Source of the DNA: Methylobacter tundripaludum | GTDB taxonomy: Bacteria > Pseudomonadota > Gammaproteobacteria > Methylococcales > Methylomonadaceae | DNA length: 64,000 nt | Assembly (NCBI RefSeq): GCF_002934365.1 | Contig: NZ_PTIY01000008.1 | Location: 62,001 to 126,000 of the forward strand | Direction of reading: 5' to 3' | In this document: in pieces, positions 10,391 to 16,336 of the stretch | Layout of the letters: each line of letters opens with the position of its first letter | Numbering within the stretch: the stretch's first letter is position 1 | The notes under the pieces: model-generated | Databases searched by the model: none | Seen by the model: the letters and a program-made list of their open reading frames with translations, nothing else | Told to the model about the DNA's origin: nothing | Translations under genes and position numbers: made by a program

Positions 10391-10416
10391 GGGTGGGCAA
10401 AAAAGCCCGCCCACCC
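10391..10416. terminator. Convergent terminator-like hairpin
   Basis: GGGTGGGC (10391-10398) pairs with GCCCACCC (10409-10416) around an A-rich loop, between the ends of the small membrane protein gene and folP. On the minus strand the loop reads as a T-run, so the hairpin may serve both convergent genes. It abuts the folP stop codon. Confidence 0.5.
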
Positions 10417-11234
10417 TATCTGCTCTGTTTAATGGCCCAGGCCACATCGACCGCCTGCCGGTTTTCCTTGACATCATGCACCCGAAACATCTGTACGCCC
10501 GCCATCACGCCTAAAGCCGTGGTCACGGCGGTGGCGGTAACCAGTTCAGAGGGCTCGGTCACATCGCAAATCGTCCCCATAAAGCGCTTGCGGCTGGTAC
10601 CCAGCAACACCGGGAAACCCGTTGCCACGAACCTGTCAAGATGCGCCAGCAGATCGAGATTATCCTGCTTGCGTTTGCCGAAACCTATGCCCGGATCGAT
10701 CGCAATCGCTTGTTGTTTAACGCCTGCTTTTAATGCCGCATCGATGCTTTCATTCAGCACATCGAGCACTTCCTGAACCACATTTTGATAATGCGGATTG
10801 TCCTGCATGGTTTTTGGGTCTCCCTTGCTGTGCATCAAAATAATCGGCGCACCGGTTTGGGCTGCCAGCGTCAGGATTGCTGCATCCTCCCTGCCCCCGG
10901 CAACATCGTTGATTATATCGGCTCCGGCATCCAGCGCCGCTTTGGCGACCTCGCTTAATGTCGTATCGATGCTGATCAGAACATCGTAGGCTTGTTGCCT
11001 GATCGCTTTAATCACCGGAACGACCCGCGAAATCTGTTCAGCAGCCGCAACCCTTTCAGCGCCGGGGCGGGTTGACTCTCCACCAATATCGATAATATCC
11101 ACGCCTTCGGCCAGCATCAGCTCAACCTGCCGCATCGCGGCATCGAGTCCCGAGTATTTGCCGCCATCGGAAAAACTGTCCGGGGTTATATTTAAAATCC
11201 CCATAATTAATGGCTTGTTGATATTACTGAACAT
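10416..11234 (-). CDS. folP: Dihydropteroate synthase
   Basis: 272-residue TIM-barrel enzyme joining 6-hydroxymethyl-dihydropterin pyrophosphate to p-aminobenzoate in folate synthesis, the sulfonamide target. The signatures 'GILNITPDSFSDGGKY', 'DIIDIGGESTRPGA', 'DVLISIDTT', 'INDVAGG', 'DPGIGFGKR' and 'GTSRKRFMG' are all intact. In E. coli folP lies behind ftsH; here it stands divergent from the methanopterin/methanofuran operon, 80 nt away, placing two competing pterin-pABA pathways side by side. A separate archaeal-type pterin-binding homologue is encoded at 11848-13287. Confidence 0.96.
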   Translation of the reverse strand: MFSNINKPLIMGILNITPDSFSDGGKYSGLDAAMRQVELMLAEGVDIIDIGGESTRPGAERVAAAEQISRVVPVIKAIRQQAYDVLISIDTTLSEVAKAALDAGADIINDVAGGREDAAILTLAAQTGAPIILMHSKGDPKTMQDNPHYQNVVQEVLDVLNESIDAALKAGVKQQAIAIDPGIGFGKRKQDNLDLLAHLDRFVATGFPVLLGTSRKRFMGTICDVTEPSELVTATAVTTALGVMAGVQMFRVHDVKENRQAVDVAWAIKQSR

Positions 11235-11314
11235 TCCCTAAAAGCTCCTGTGCGCAAGATCGATGTTTTGATTCATGTATAATAACCAAATGTTTTCGAC
11301 CCTGATTGAATTTA

Positions 11315-11851
11315 ATGCCTAAATCACGATTAGCCTGGGCCATTACCGGCTCCGGCCATTACATAGAAGAATGCCTGGACTTCCTGCTGACGCTGGATGA
11401 AGTTGATCTGTATCTGAGTCAGGCCGGTGAAGAGGTGTTAAAAATGTATGGCGTCAATCTCGATGACGTTCGAAAAAAAATGCCGGTGTACCGCGATAAA
11501 GCCGCCTCAGCGCCGCCGGTCGGGCATTTTTACAAGGGCCATTACCATACCTTTGTGATGGCGCCGACCACGTCGAACACGGTAGCAAAATGCGTGCTGG
11601 GCATTGCCGACTCCTTGGTGACCAATCTTTACTCCCAAGCCGGAAAATGCAAGGTTCCGAGCATTGTCTACCCCTGCGATATAGCGCCGGAAATGGAAAC
11701 CACCGCGCCGGGCGGCAAAGTCATGGTTTATCCGCGTAAAATCGATCTGGAAGGCACGGCCAAATTGCGCACCTTTGAATACACGAGCGTCGTTGAAAGC
11801 GTCGATGAATTGATCGTCAAAGTCAAAGAACGGCTACAATCGTTAACATGA
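11315..11851 (+). CDS. DmrB/AfpA-type flavoprotein (dihydromethanopterin reductase-like)
   Basis: About 178-residue flavoprotein of the archaeal-flavoprotein family (AfpA; DmrB). 'AWAITGSGHYIEECLDFLL' is the FMN-phosphate loop of flavodoxin-like Flavoprotein-family (PF02441) members, and 'VMAPTTSNTVAKCVLGIADS' is a second family hallmark. Homologues occur with H4MPT genes of methylotrophs and archaea, and DmrB reduces dihydromethanopterin to the tetrahydro form. I use ATG 11315 rather than the TTG at 11306. Its TGA overlaps the next ATG by four bases, so it opens a tightly coupled operon. The exact electron donor is unknown. Confidence 0.85.
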   Translation: MPKSRLAWAITGSGHYIEECLDFLLTLDEVDLYLSQAGEEVLKMYGVNLDDVRKKMPVYRDKAASAPPVGHFYKGHYHTFVMAPTTSNTVAKCVLGIADSLVTNLYSQAGKCKVPSIVYPCDIAPEMETTAPGGKVMVYPRKIDLEGTAKLRTFEYTSVVESVDELIVKVKERLQSLT

Positions 11852-13287
11852 GCGAACATATCCTCTTTCTTACCGGCAAACTGGCGGAAAAGCAGCTGCG
11901 TAGCATCCTCGAAAAAATGCAGCCGAAATTCACCTATACCGTGCATCAGCTGGGGCTTAAAGTCGCGGCGTTGATGACCGCAGACATGATAGGCCGCCGC
12001 TTGACCGACACTTTCGGCGCCGACCGCATACTGGTGCCCGGACGCTGCCGCGGCGATCTGGAAGCCTTGTCCAAAGACTTAGGCATGCCGATTGAGCGCG
12101 GCCCGGACGAACTGAAAGACTTGCCGATGTTTTTCGGCCACGCCGCACACAAGATTGATTTAAACAACTACAACGTCAAAATCTTCGCCGAAATCGTCGA
12201 TGCGCCCAATGTCAGCGTCGAAGAGGTGGTCAAACGCGCCTATTACTACAAGCACAATGGCGCTGACGTGATCGACATAGGCTGTCTGCCGAGCACCGAT
12301 TTTCCGCACATGGAAGACATCATCCGCACCTTGAAACAGGAAGGCTTTACCGTCAGCATCGATTCGTTGGAGTCGGACGACTTGCTCAGGGGCGGCAAGG
12401 CGGGCGCGGACTACATGCTCAGCTTGCACGAAAGCACGTTATGGGTTGCCGACGAAGTCGCGGCGACGCCGATTTTAATCCCGGAAAAACATGAAGACTT
12501 GGCTTCGCTGGACCGGGCTATAAAAATCATGCAGGCAAAAAACCGGGACTTTATCGTCGACCCGATTTTAGACCCGCTGCACTTCGGCTTCACGCAATCC
12601 ATCGTGCGCTATCACGAGGTCAGGAAGAAGCATCCCGATATTGAAATGATGCTCGGCGTCGGCAATATCACCGAACTGACCCATGCCGATACCGTAGGCA
12701 TGAATGCGTTGCTGCTGGGCATCTGCTCGGAACTCAACATCAACAGCATTCTGGCGACCGAAGTCAGCAAGCATGCCTGCCGGGCGGTCAAGGAAGCCGA
12801 TCTGGCCCGCCGCATCATGTTTGCGGCGAAAGAGCATAACATGCTGCCCAAACATATCGATCCGGGTTTAATGGCCTTGCATGAAACCTCGCCCTTCCCT
12901 TACAGTCTGGATGAAATCAAGGAACTGGCCGGGCAAATCAAAGACCCCAGTTACCGCGTACAAATCAGCACCGAAGGCGTACATATTTTTAACCGAGACG
13001 GATTGCACAGCGCCACCGATCCATTCGACCTGTTTCCAAAACTGCATGTCGAAAACGACGGCGGCCACGCTTTTTACCTGGGCGTTGAACTGGCCCGCGC
13101 CGAAATAGCCTGGCAGTTAGGCAAACGCTACACCCAGGATCAAGCACTGCAATGGGGCTGCGCAACCGACACCTCAGAATCCACCGTCGACCTGCACACC
13201 TTTAAACCGGCCGGAACCACTTTCGCCGCGCCCGCTCCCGGCGGGCCTGCGGCATACACACCATCCCTGGCGATAAAAAAGCACTAA
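11848..13287 (+). CDS. DUF6513 / pterin-binding (DHPS-like) protein, H4MPT-linked
   Basis: 479 residues. An N-terminal DUF6513 domain (residues ~1-110, with 'DRILVPGRCRGDLE' and 'ERGPDELKDLP') is followed by a dihydropteroate-synthase-like pterin-binding barrel: 'KHNGADVIDIGCLPSTDFPH', 'SIDSLESDDLLRGGKAGADY', 'DFIVDPILDP'. This architecture belongs to the conserved unknown genes of the bacterial H4MPT cluster (orf-type genes of Methylobacterium) and resembles MJ0107-type archaeal pterin enzymes. A role in methanopterin biosynthesis is family knowledge; the reaction is unproven. Coupled by 4-nt overlap upstream and 1-nt overlap downstream. Confidence 0.88.
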   Translation: MSEHILFLTGKLAEKQLRSILEKMQPKFTYTVHQLGLKVAALMTADMIGRRLTDTFGADRILVPGRCRGDLEALSKDLGMPIERGPDELKDLPMFFGHAAHKIDLNNYNVKIFAEIVDAPNVSVEEVVKRAYYYKHNGADVIDIGCLPSTDFPHMEDIIRTLKQEGFTVSIDSLESDDLLRGGKAGADYMLSLHESTLWVADEVAATPILIPEKHEDLASLDRAIKIMQAKNRDFIVDPILDPLHFGFTQSIVRYHEVRKKHPDIEMMLGVGNITELTHADTVGMNALLLGICSELNINSILATEVSKHACRAVKEADLARRIMFAAKEHNMLPKHIDPGLMALHETSPFPYSLDEIKELAGQIKDPSYRVQISTEGVHIFNRDGLHSATDPFDLFPKLHVENDGGHAFYLGVELARAEIAWQLGKRYTQDQALQWGCATDTSESTVDLHTFKPAGTTFAAPAPGGPAAYTPSLAIKKH

Positions 13288-13889
13288 TGATTCAAGAAAC
13301 CATAGTCACCACCCAAAACAGTTCAGGCGTGGCGCATATTGCGCCTATGGGCATACATTTATCCGCTGAAGCGCAAGACGAATTCATCATCCTGCCGTTC
13401 CGCCCTTCAACCACGCTCAATAACCTGCTGGACAGCAAAACCGCAGTTATCAATTATTGCGACGACGTGCGGGTATTTGCCGGCTGCCTGACCGGGCGGC
13501 GCGACTGGCAGTTAAAACCGGCGAAGAAAATCAACGGTCAAGTGCTGGCCTGCACATTGGCCCATACCGAAGTCGAACTGGTTCGCGTCGAAGACGACGA
13601 GACCCGGCCCAAATTATTCTGTAAAGCCGTGCATACCGTTAATCATGCGCCCTTTAAAGGCTTTAACCGCGCCCAGTATTCGGTGCTGGAAGCGGCGATT
13701 TTAATCAGCCGATTAAACATGCTTCCGCTGGAAAAAATACAAGCTGAAATCGACTATCTGCGCATCGGCCTGGAAAAAACAGCCGGGGACCGGGAGCTGG
13801 AAGCCTGGGGTTGGTTGATGTCTGTCATTGAAAACCATACAGTAAACCAAGCGAAAACGGCTGAGGCAAAAACCGGAGTTAAGCCATGA
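13287..13889 (+). CDS. DUF447 family protein, H4MPT-linked
   Basis: 200 residues. 'IQETIVTTQNSSGVAHIAPMG' and 'EFIILPFRPSTTLNNLLDSK' mark DUF447, a split-barrel FMN-binding-like family found with archaeal and methylotroph C1 genes. The ATG overlaps the preceding stop by one base (TAATG) and the gene ends overlapping the MfnB gene by four bases (ATGA), so its translation is coupled to both. The biochemical role is not known. The predicted flavin-reductase-like fold makes a redox step in cofactor synthesis plausible (inference). Confidence 0.88.
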   Translation: MIQETIVTTQNSSGVAHIAPMGIHLSAEAQDEFIILPFRPSTTLNNLLDSKTAVINYCDDVRVFAGCLTGRRDWQLKPAKKINGQVLACTLAHTEVELVRVEDDETRPKLFCKAVHTVNHAPFKGFNRAQYSVLEAAILISRLNMLPLEKIQAEIDYLRIGLEKTAGDRELEAWGWLMSVIENHTVNQAKTAEAKTGVKP

Positions 13890-14926
13890 CCGGAATGCTC
13901 GCCAGCGTCAACAGCGTAGAAGAAGCCTTGCAGGCGCTAAGCGCGAACGTCGATATTATCGACCTGAAACAACCGGCTTTAGGCGCTTTGGGCGCGCTGG
14001 AAACAGACCTGGTCAAAACCATTGTTGATGAAATCGATGGCCGTTGTCCCGTCAGCGCAACCGTTGGCGACCTGCCGATGCAGCCGGAGCTTGTCTACCG
14101 GGCAGTCGAGGCGATGGCCGAAACCGGCGTCGATTATGTCAAAATCGGTTTTTTCCCCGGCGGCGACTGGCAGGGAACGATTGAAAAACTCGCTACGTTG
14201 CCGCAAACGCTGAACTTAATCGCCGTATTATTCGCCGATACCCAACCGGATTTAGCCGTGGTAGACTCGCTCGCCGATGCCGGTTTCAAAGGCGTCATGC
14301 TCGACACCATGAACAAGGGCAACGGTTCTTTAACCCAGGTCATGGCGAAAACCGGCATAGCCCGATTTGCCGGTCTGGCAAAAGACCGGCAACTGCTCTG
14401 CGGACTGGCCGGTTCGCTCAGACTGGACGATATAGCCGCACTGATGCCCCACCAGCCTGATTACCTGGGTTTCAGGGGCGCATTATGTCAGGAACACAAC
14501 AGGACAGCGCAATTAAGCAGGTCGTCAATCATGCAGATAAAACAAGCTATAGATACTCAGAACCTGCTCCAGGCAGAAAACCGCATTTTAATTGCCGATG
14601 ACAGTGAAATAAACCGGCTGATATTGGGCAACATGCTTGAACTGAGCGGCTACACCGTAGACGCCGCCGCCGACGGCGCCGAAGCGTTGCAATTTATCAG
14701 CGAAAACCGCTATCAAATGGCGCTGATCGATCTCAGCATGCCGGTCATGTCGGGACTGGAGATGATAAAAATCCTCAGAAGCCGACATAACCCGCTAAAA
14801 GTCGCCGCCATCAGCACGTTTGCCGACAGCAACCAAAAGACCGAAGCGTTGGCCGCCGGATTCGATTACTGCTTAACCAGACCTATCGATGAAGAACAAT
14901 TGGTTGCGCTGATAAATCTACGCTAG
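13886..14926 (+). CDS. MfnB-like methanofuran enzyme fused to a response-regulator receiver domain
   Basis: 346 residues in one uninterrupted frame. Residues ~1-225 are (5-formylfuran-3-yl)methyl phosphate synthase (MfnB, DUF556), which makes the furan of methanofuran from glyceraldehyde 3-phosphate. 'IIDLKQPALGALGALE' carries the candidate Schiff-base Lys28, followed by 'DYVKIGFFPGGDW', 'MLDTMNKGNGSLTQVM' and 'LCGLAGSLRLDDI'. Residues ~232-346 are a CheY-like receiver domain: acidic pair Asp238-Asp239, phospho-acceptor Asp282 (ALIDLSMPVMSG), Ser310/Thr311. The usual Lys before Pro is Arg332 (TRPI). The stop overlaps the end of a MITE-like repeat. A linker at ~215-231 joins the domains. Such a fusion is new to me. 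Confidence 0.85.
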   Translation: MTGMLASVNSVEEALQALSANVDIIDLKQPALGALGALETDLVKTIVDEIDGRCPVSATVGDLPMQPELVYRAVEAMAETGVDYVKIGFFPGGDWQGTIEKLATLPQTLNLIAVLFADTQPDLAVVDSLADAGFKGVMLDTMNKGNGSLTQVMAKTGIARFAGLAKDRQLLCGLAGSLRLDDIAALMPHQPDYLGFRGALCQEHNRTAQLSRSSIMQIKQAIDTQNLLQAENRILIADDSEINRLILGNMLELSGYTVDAAADGAEALQFISENRYQMALIDLSMPVMSGLEMIKILRSRHNPLKVAAISTFADSNQKTEALAAGFDYCLTRPIDEEQLVALINLR

Positions 14927-15088
14927 GAGTCTGTCGGATAGATATTGTTCCGATCTCTCGGGTGGATATTATTAGAGTGTATTGATTTCGAAATATTTAT
15001 CAAAATGGTTTTTTAACGTCATCAAACGGCCTTTTCCTATAACCAGCGGAATAACATTCATATCAATTCGCTAAATTAGACAGACTCC
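14926..15088. repeat. MITE-like element with GGAGTCTGTC ends
   Basis: 163 bp bounded by GGAGTCTGTC (14926-14935) and its inverse GACAGACTCC (15079-15088), AT-rich and without an open frame inside. The left end begins at the last base of the mfnB-fusion stop codon. It is either a miniature inverted-repeat element or a remnant of an insertion sequence. No target duplication is obvious. Confidence 0.5.
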
Positions 15089-15121
15089 CAGGCGTTTTTT
15101 TGCAACGCATGATCAACAGGA

Positions 15122-16336
15122 TCAATGCAGTTGGTGAAGCTCCAACCGGCGCAGTTTCGGCGCCAGTTTTGCCGTCGCGGCAACTACAGTCAAGGTCATC
15201 ACTCCGCCGAACACTACCGACGGCGCCAGCCCCATCAGGCGCGCAGCAATACCCGATTCAAAAGCTCCCAGCTCGTTGGATGAGCCGATAAAGATGCCGT
15301 TGATAGCGGAAACCCTGCCACGCATGGCATCGGGCGTCGCCAGTTGCATAATGGTCGTGCGCATAACCACGGAGACTCCGTCGCAAACACCGGAAAGTAT
15401 CAACGCCAGCCCGGCAACCCAGAAGTTTGTTGATATGGCAAAGAAAATCATGCAGAAGCCGAACCCTGCCACAGCTGTCAGCAGCCAACGCCCGGCGTGC
15501 AGGTTGATCGGATGGCGGGCTAGCACTAGCCCGGTTACCACGGCGCCGACGGCCGGCGCGGCGCGAAGAATCCCGAGCCCCTCGGGACCGTAATGAAAGA
15601 TGTCGTGAATGAACGCAGGCAGCATGGAAACCGCGCCCCCGAACAGCACGGCGAACATGTCCAGCGACTGCGCGCCCAAGATGATCTGGTTGCTGAACAC
15701 GAAACGCAATCCTTCGGCGATGCTGGTGAAAATAGGTGCGCTGGCCGCTGCGGGAGGTTCCTCGACACGCAGTGACAGCAACGCCACTGCGGCAACCAGA
15801 CACAGGCCGGCTGCAACGCCGTAAGCGGCAGTCTTGCCTGCCCATCCGACCAGGATGCCACCTATCGCAGGCCCGACCACGAGTCCAAACTGGAACACGG
15901 CACTGCCGATTCCCGAGGCCCTGGCATAGTGTTCGCGCTGTAAAACCAAGGCGAACATCGCGCTATACGACGGACCGATAAACGCGCGCGCCACTCCGGT
16001 AAAGGCGATAGAGCCGTAGATCCACAACGCAGGATTGCCGCCTATCCAACCTGCCGCCACTGCTGTCAGTGTCAACGCGGTCAGAAACAGCATCAAGCAG
16101 GCGAACACACCGAACATGCGCCGAGAATGGTGATCTACCGCATAACCGGCAAACAACGCGCAACAGAAGTAGGGAACGACCTCAGCCAATCCGACCAGAC
16201 CCAGGGCCAGTGTGTCATGCGTCAGCTCGTAAATATGCCAACCCACCACGATCGCCATTATTTGGTAGGCGAGGACGATTATGACGCGAAAAGATAACAG
16301 CTTGAGAAAAGGATTGGGTTTAACAAAAAATTGCAT
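15122..16336 (-). CDS. MFS transporter (EntS/MFS_3-like exporter)
   Basis: About 404 residues with twelve predicted membrane helices. The N-terminal 'YELTHDTLALGLVGLAEVVP' and 'GYAVDHHSRRMFGV' (variant of the GxxxDRxxRR loop between helices 2 and 3) fit the MFS_3 group that includes EntS. Middle segments such as 'RAFIGPSYSAMFALVLQREH' and 'GVSVVMRTTIMQLATPDAMRGRVSAINGIFIG' are typical of this branch. Substrate is unknown; no siderophore genes are near. I take ATG 16336 as start; a GTG at 16435 would add 33 residues. The gene converges on the MITE after the mfnB fusion. Confidence 0.85.
   Translation of the reverse strand: MQFFVKPNPFLKLLSFRVIIVLAYQIMAIVVGWHIYELTHDTLALGLVGLAEVVPYFCCALFAGYAVDHHSRRMFGVFACLMLFLTALTLTAVAAGWIGGNPALWIYGSIAFTGVARAFIGPSYSAMFALVLQREHYARASGIGSAVFQFGLVVGPAIGGILVGWAGKTAAYGVAAGLCLVAAVALLSLRVEEPPAAASAPIFTSIAEGLRFVFSNQIILGAQSLDMFAVLFGGAVSMLPAFIHDIFHYGPEGLGILRAAPAVGAVVTGLVLARHPINLHAGRWLLTAVAGFGFCMIFFAISTNFWVAGLALILSGVCDGVSVVMRTTIMQLATPDAMRGRVSAINGIFIGSSNELGAFESGIAARLMGLAPSVVFGGVMTLTVVAATAKLAPKLRRLELHQLH

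Follow-up and report, generated by a model that had tools for sequence, protein, structure and literature searches.

A receiver domain behind MfnB in Methylobacter as the probable remnant of a downstream hybrid histidine kinase

How an enzyme of methanofuran synthesis came to carry a two-component receiver domain, and what that domain does there, is the question raised by one gene in a 64,000-nucleotide stretch of Methylobacter tundripaludum DNA (hereafter the window). A first-pass annotation had described the gene as MfnB continued in one clean frame into a receiver, and had proposed that a two-component input gives phosphorylation control of methanofuran supply. The open reading frame (13886-14926, + strand) runs from ATG to TAG and encodes 346 aa with zero internal stops. 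Pfam places 4HFCP_synth (PF04476) at residues 4-218 (13895-14539, +; 231.6 bits vs. a cut-off of 22.4, E = 1.3e-68) and Response_reg (PF00072) at residues 234-343 (14585-14914, +; 91.5 bits vs. 30.2, E = 4.9e-26), which confirms the single clean frame. VpsR (PF20161) was the one further Pfam match. Neither HisKA nor HATPase was found by Pfam in the fused chain, which is thus not a hybrid histidine kinase. Residues 219-233 (14540-14584, +) comprise the end of the last barrel helix (helix 212-226 in the AlphaFold2 model) and a variable linker, the length of which differs between fused relatives in the alignment.

Among the NCBIfam models, NF002576, titled "hypothetical protein", was a near miss (279.3 bits, under its cut-off of 297). 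The pair of models that carry the name (5-formylfuran-3-yl)methyl phosphate synthase scored 113.6 and 103.1 bits vs. 304 and 341, and no NCBIfam equivalog cut-off was reached by the MfnB part. In the alignment with MJ1099, K27, K85, D151 and K155 of that enzyme correspond to K28, K86, D140 and K144 of the window's protein (MJ1099 numbers after subtraction of a 7-residue tag from the aligned sequence). K27, K85 and D151 count as further pocket residues. Lys155 is named as catalytic in PMC11365854. Judged by these features, the N-terminal part is MfnB, a 4-HFC-P synthase of predicted activity. One MfnB gene was found in the window's genome (1 of 51 matches spans the MfnB part). The structure prediction suggested in the first-pass annotation returned a barrel and a complete (beta-alpha)5 receiver (AlphaFold2, mean pLDDT 89.2); at a pTM of 0.66 the relative placing of the two domains is uncertain, so that no interface can be claimed. 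Foldseek paired the MfnB part with MJ1099 (4rc1, 4u9p) and the receiver part with receivers of the CheY/PhoP type. Separate translation of the receiver from an internal ATG (residue 216) was considered and set aside: the Met is present in 9/12 fused proteins and missing in G001, G007, and G021.

The fusion gene is the last in a run of overlapping genes. It is preceded by a flavoprotein gene (11306-11851, +; PF02441, scanned from 11315, resembling dihydromethanopterin reductase and AfpA models below their cut-offs), a dihydropteroate-synthase-like gene (11848-13287, +; DUF6513, and TIGR00284 below cut-off, from Pfam and NCBIfam), and a DUF447 gene of the same operon (13287-13889, +; ORFs and Pfam) with a 4-base overlap with the mfnB start. 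The intact overlaps reported earlier (11848-13287, 13287-13889, 13886-14926) were recovered. A folP-like pterin-binding enzyme (10416-11234, - strand; Pfam) is encoded divergently from the operon. Promoter and terminator scans gave sites no more frequent than in shuffles, and no tandem repeats were found in 13000-16000. In several congeners a dispersed repeat of ~50 bases, encoding DGVYA-x-SGTGSA-like peptides, has entered the DUF447 gene at two places with the frame kept open, and the protein with these insertions grows from 187 to 270 aa (loci L014, L039, L040, L042, L045, and L046). The repeat is also present elsewhere in the window, at 13265 (-) and 51399 (+), and we take it to resemble ORF-invading palindromic elements.

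At a threshold of E <= 1e-25, 219/237 genomes of the family matched the protein, a few perhaps in part or through a kinase receiver only. Among the matches listed, those running through both domains came from 12 genomes, all of them in the window's genus (g1, 23 genomes); rows that reached past residue 225 only via stop codons (e.g. G113, to 280) were excluded from this count. Carriers include Methylobacter tundripaludum SV96 and Ca. M. oryzae KRF1, and the other 11 fused proteins are 71-88% identical to that of the window. No frameshift or stop was found in the fused genes of the 12 species. In one of them (G013) the gene ends at residue 330 with its contig and contig L091 of the same MAG starts with receiver residues 285-346, and this gene was read from the two contigs. 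The two-domain order that the first-pass annotation proposed to look for in relatives is thus present in 12/23 congeners, and the outcome named as its refutation, separate genes in all close relatives, did not occur. The suggestion of a recent gene fusion holds as to the fusion, but the event is common to most of the genus and not confined to a single strain.

Among the long frames read from wider scans, none placed a further receiver behind MfnB, G528 aside. At class level 49/369 genomes matched, with eight matches in open frames of at least 335 aa, the window's gene included. Six of these frames (L236-L241) were rejected as MfnB-receiver fusions, their extra length lying upstream of MfnB in what is apparently a GC-rich non-gene frame, and reading of the eighth (G528, L242) yielded no hit to MfnB. 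At phylum level 20/398 matched, 11 of them with frames of at least 336 aa including the window's; the 10 others comprised six with a C-terminal FolB domain and four from which an added C-terminal domain is absent. Four loci from other scans, the family scan among them (L243-L246), likewise lack such a domain. Among the family, class and phylum scan matches, G528 aside, no receiver behind MfnB was found outside the window's genus. The FolB (dihydroneopterin aldolase) proteins are encoded at L247, L248, L249, L251, L252, and L253, and in L248 the frame continues past FolB into an amino-acid-kinase domain, to the end of the stretch read.

A source for the receiver is suggested by what lies behind mfnB in relatives. 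The downstream side was inspected at 91 mfnB loci, many genomes being represented twice and some contigs being short. A same-strand histidine kinase was found downstream at 14/91 loci, corresponding to 12 genomes: 11 from genera g1, g10, g15, g27, and g30, and MAG STB_140 (L061). The window's genus contributes G003, G015, G017, and G018, and four other genera contribute G031, G064, G036, G070, G071, G117, and G122. In 10/12 genomes the start of the kinase ORF lies no further than 8 bases upstream or 12 bases downstream of the mfnB end (at L058 and L060 it overlaps the mfnB end by 4 bases). The exceptions are G018, with a gap of ~290 bases, and G003, where the contig breaks off within the kinase, short of a receiver. 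Five kinases were scanned for domains, and their layout was NMT1/THI5-PAS-HisKA-HATPase-REC in three (L055, L058, and L060) and MASE1-HisKA-HATPase-REC in two (L061 and L074). Since the core and the receiver are shared and the sensor parts differ (NMT1/THI5-PAS or MASE1), the sensor part was probably exchanged during evolution.

The 11 mfnB-linked kinase receivers that lie on a contig share 51-69% identity with the fused receiver, and the next receiver in the window's own genome shares 38%. In a receiver tree of 33 rows the 12 fused receivers form one clade (100/99) that adjoins G015/G004 (88/80) among the kinase receivers, with a rooting that is weakened by long outgroup branches. In G004 a lone receiver gene occupies the kinase position, with apparent pieces of a kinase start before it as judged by eye, and this arrangement looks like a deletion intermediate in which the kinase was reduced to a separate receiver gene. 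Most likely, judging from these comparisons, the fused receiver was left by deletion of the body of a downstream kinase. The ancestral state supported by the comparison would be mfnB followed, mostly without a gap, by a same-strand hybrid histidine kinase with a terminal receiver. In an ancestor of most of the genus, the mfnB stop and the sensor-kinase part would then have been lost through a deletion that brought the receiver into the mfnB frame. The mfnB-linked kinase was not found in the 7/12 fused genomes searched (G000, G001, G007, G010, G011, G012, and G019). Their best matches to the kinase core, among the matches listed (76 candidates scored per genome), were 36-42% identical, and the mfnB-linked kinases are 54-71% identical among themselves. 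Near full-length kinase paralogues of the same layout were present in G012 (39%) and G001 (36%), and paralogues of the sensor part reached 68% (G011), again among the matches listed.

In 6/23 congeners (G002, G005, G008, G016, G020, and G022) mfnB has neither kinase nor receiver behind it, so the receiver is not essential. Receiver DNA remnants follow the mfnB stop in G002 (23 bases at 96% and 51 bases at 92%). For G008, 67 columns match (87%) from the mfnB end across the linker into the receiver's first codons, and 24 bases of the receiver start are 96% identical to the window. In G022 the match is limited to 16 bases, and no receiver remnant was found past the mfnB end in G005, G016, and G020. 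The 254-aa MfnB of G022 (L138) is matched twice, at query 1-131 and, with some overlap, at 116-223, which suggests that the domain has gained an insertion. In a tree of the rpoB region (6.8 kb, 28 rows; G018 and G022 absent, no rpoB match; G015 fills 49% of columns) G005/G020 and G002/G008/G016 fall inside two separate fused groups. The fused G014 lies among G002/G008/G016, a position that would need three losses. One clade of fused and loss genomes (17 rows) was not rejected (p-AU = 0.54), and a clade of fused genomes alone was rejected (p-AU = 1.3e-8). The poorly resolved tree of MfnB and DUF447, on which the fused state needed three changes, is superseded by the rpoB-region tree. One gain of the fusion would fit these trees together with at least two losses, the base of the clade not being firmly resolved; at least two sublineages would accordingly have lost the receiver again by deletion.

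The active site of the fused receiver was compared with that of its putative source. In 12/12 receivers of the parental type (11 kinases and the G004 lone receiver) the DD pair, D, N at D+2, S, A, Y, Y at K-3, and K are all present. In the window's receiver DD corresponds to D238/D239, D to D282, the T position to S310, the K position to R332, and K-3 to C329. Four of the five canonical residues (DD, D, S/T) are thus kept, and the conserved active-site Lys is replaced by R332 (codon AGA, 14879-14881, +). The aromatic residue at K-3 that serves Y-T coupling is missing, C329 standing in its place. All 12 fused receivers keep DD, D, and S. The K-3 Tyr is gone in 12/12 (C in 11, S in one), N at D+2 is lost in 11/12 (G006 alone retains it), and Lys has become Arg in 10/12 (G001 and G007 keep Lys). 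In the same 10 Arg proteins S-T-F replaces S-A-Y, T+1 having changed from Ala to Thr and T+2 from Tyr to Phe; for G013 the two contigs were combined into one row. This distribution suggests an order of remodelling in which loss of the K-3 aromatic and, in 11/12, of N at D+2 preceded the Arg, Thr, and Phe exchanges.

In PMC12632262, a receiver lacking any one of the five active-site residues is termed a pseudo-receiver, Arg commonly replaces K in pseudo-receivers, T+1 governs access to the phosphorylation site, the Y-T coupling of the K-3 aromatic is described, and phosphorylation may survive substitutions of DD, T, or K. PMC3203184 gives two cases of the same exchange: K102R in CsrR blocks signalling, and CheY with K109R still accepts a phosphoryl group yet fails to trigger tumbling. 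With R332 and C329, the window's receiver is a pseudo-receiver by the definition in PMC12632262. As D238, D239, D282, and S310 remain, weak or altered phosphorylation is possible.

Selection on the fused gene was estimated with a codon model from the 12 fused genes, with the topology fixed from the rpoB tree. Omega was 0.185 for the receiver and 0.194 for MfnB, and omega = 1, at the best kappa of a nine-value grid, was worse by 113 and 206 log units, respectively. NG86 estimates for 66/66 pairs were 0.147 (receiver) and 0.159 (MfnB), at a median pairwise receiver dS of ~0.75. The receiver is under purifying selection, with a constraint equal to that of MfnB. In three close pairs (among G000, G009, G010, and G013) the NG86 synonymous divergence of MfnB/receiver was 0.24/0.55, 0.29/0.51, and 0.23/0.62; the halved or lower values for MfnB perhaps reflect recombination among relatives.

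Several accounts of the fusion were weighed against these data. A sequencing or assembly join, raised in the first-pass annotation, or an accident of a single strain can practically be dismissed, as the fusion occurs in 12/23 congeneric genomes that include two named strains, the other 11 proteins being at 71-88% identity. In canonical control, as originally worded, another histidine kinase or a small phosphodonor would phosphorylate D282 and thereby switch the activity or assembly of MfnB. The residues for this are present (D238, D239, D282, and S310, at positions invariant in 12/12 fused receivers), 30 HisKA matches in the genome (29 over the cut-off) offer possible donors, two fused species keep the Lys, and substitutions of DD, T, or K may, according to PMC12632262, leave phosphorylation intact. 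Retention of DD, D, and S adds little to the case, however, since 52/114 receiver columns are invariant anyway in 11 fused sequences. Against it stand the change of Lys to Arg in 10/12 and the loss of the K-3 aromatic in 12/12, both seen in 0/12 receivers of the parental type, and the failure to find the mfnB-linked kinase among the matches listed for the seven fused genomes searched. The active-site changes, read with the pseudo-receiver literature, make canonical control less likely in the window's protein; we consider it unlikely, and the claim does not stand in its original form.

The receiver could also be a passenger with no signalling role, a tail that stabilises or solubilises MfnB or that has not yet decayed. 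Its absence from 6/23 congeners after at least two losses, the lost switch residues and the partner kinase not found in the seven fused genomes searched would all agree with this. The omega of 0.185 and the 113 log units by which the fit worsens at omega = 1 speak against it, as do fused genes free of frameshift or stop in 12 species at a median receiver dS of ~0.75. The S-T-F/R set, moreover, is identical in all 10 Arg members and not scattered, and such a uniform new residue set together with the low omega argues against mere decay. We regard the passenger account as rather improbable. The account to which we give somewhat better than even probability joins a fusion by kinase deletion, a receiver remodelled under selection, and a pseudo-receiver that would tune MfnB. 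The fused receiver would have been kept by purifying selection, as the codon model supports, while its active site was remodelled.

We accordingly favour a captured pseudo-receiver that would act on MfnB mainly without phosphorylation. It may alter the stability, the oligomeric state, or the partner binding of MfnB, largely without phosphorylation, and would thereby tune methanofuran supply in a way that is useful but dispensable. In a TIM barrel the last helix normally terminates at the side that faces away from the active site. For a receiver placed behind that helix, contacts in an oligomer, stability, or a partner would therefore be likelier targets than blocking of the active site. The remodelled pocket (DD, D, S, T, F, R) might even bind a phosphorylated metabolite or an anion, giving direct, phosphorylation-independent feedback on methanofuran supply, an idea we hold to be of low probability.

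Known systems resemble the fusion in part. MJ1099, the MfnB of Methanocaldococcus jannaschii (4rc1, 4u9p), shares the fold and the aligned K27/K85/D151/K155, but has no added C-terminal domain and is about 30% identical to the window's MfnB. The mfnB-linked hybrid kinases (e.g. L058 3374-6364 and L060 1882-5658) share the place behind mfnB and, in 11, a receiver 51-69% identical; they have in addition a sensor, HisKA, HATPase, and a full receiver active site, whereas the fusion has the receiver only. To our knowledge, receivers joined to biosynthetic enzymes appear to be rare. With the pseudo-receivers of PMC12632262 the fusion shares an incomplete active site, one residue of the five being replaced (K to R), and it differs in sitting behind a metabolic enzyme and in the retention of D, DD, and S. 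The six MfnB-FolB proteins, from other genomes of the phylum, likewise combine MfnB with an added C-terminal domain, but join enzyme to enzyme with no signalling domain and are presumably of independent origin. In open-licence PMC texts no description of an MfnB-receiver fusion was found, in agreement with the first-pass annotation, and nothing pertinent was found there on the MfnB-FolB fusion.

The proposed path is visible in living relatives, from a kinase behind mfnB to a lone receiver (G004), a fusion that retains Lys (G001 and G007), the remodelled fusion of 10 species, and loss. Because the named strain M. tundripaludum SV96 carries the fusion, the proposal is testable. The MfnB-REC series would constitute a natural experiment in the conversion of a phospho-switch into a pseudo-receiver. 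It also suggests a previously unstudied connection of sensor kinases with methanofuran synthesis in methanotrophs.
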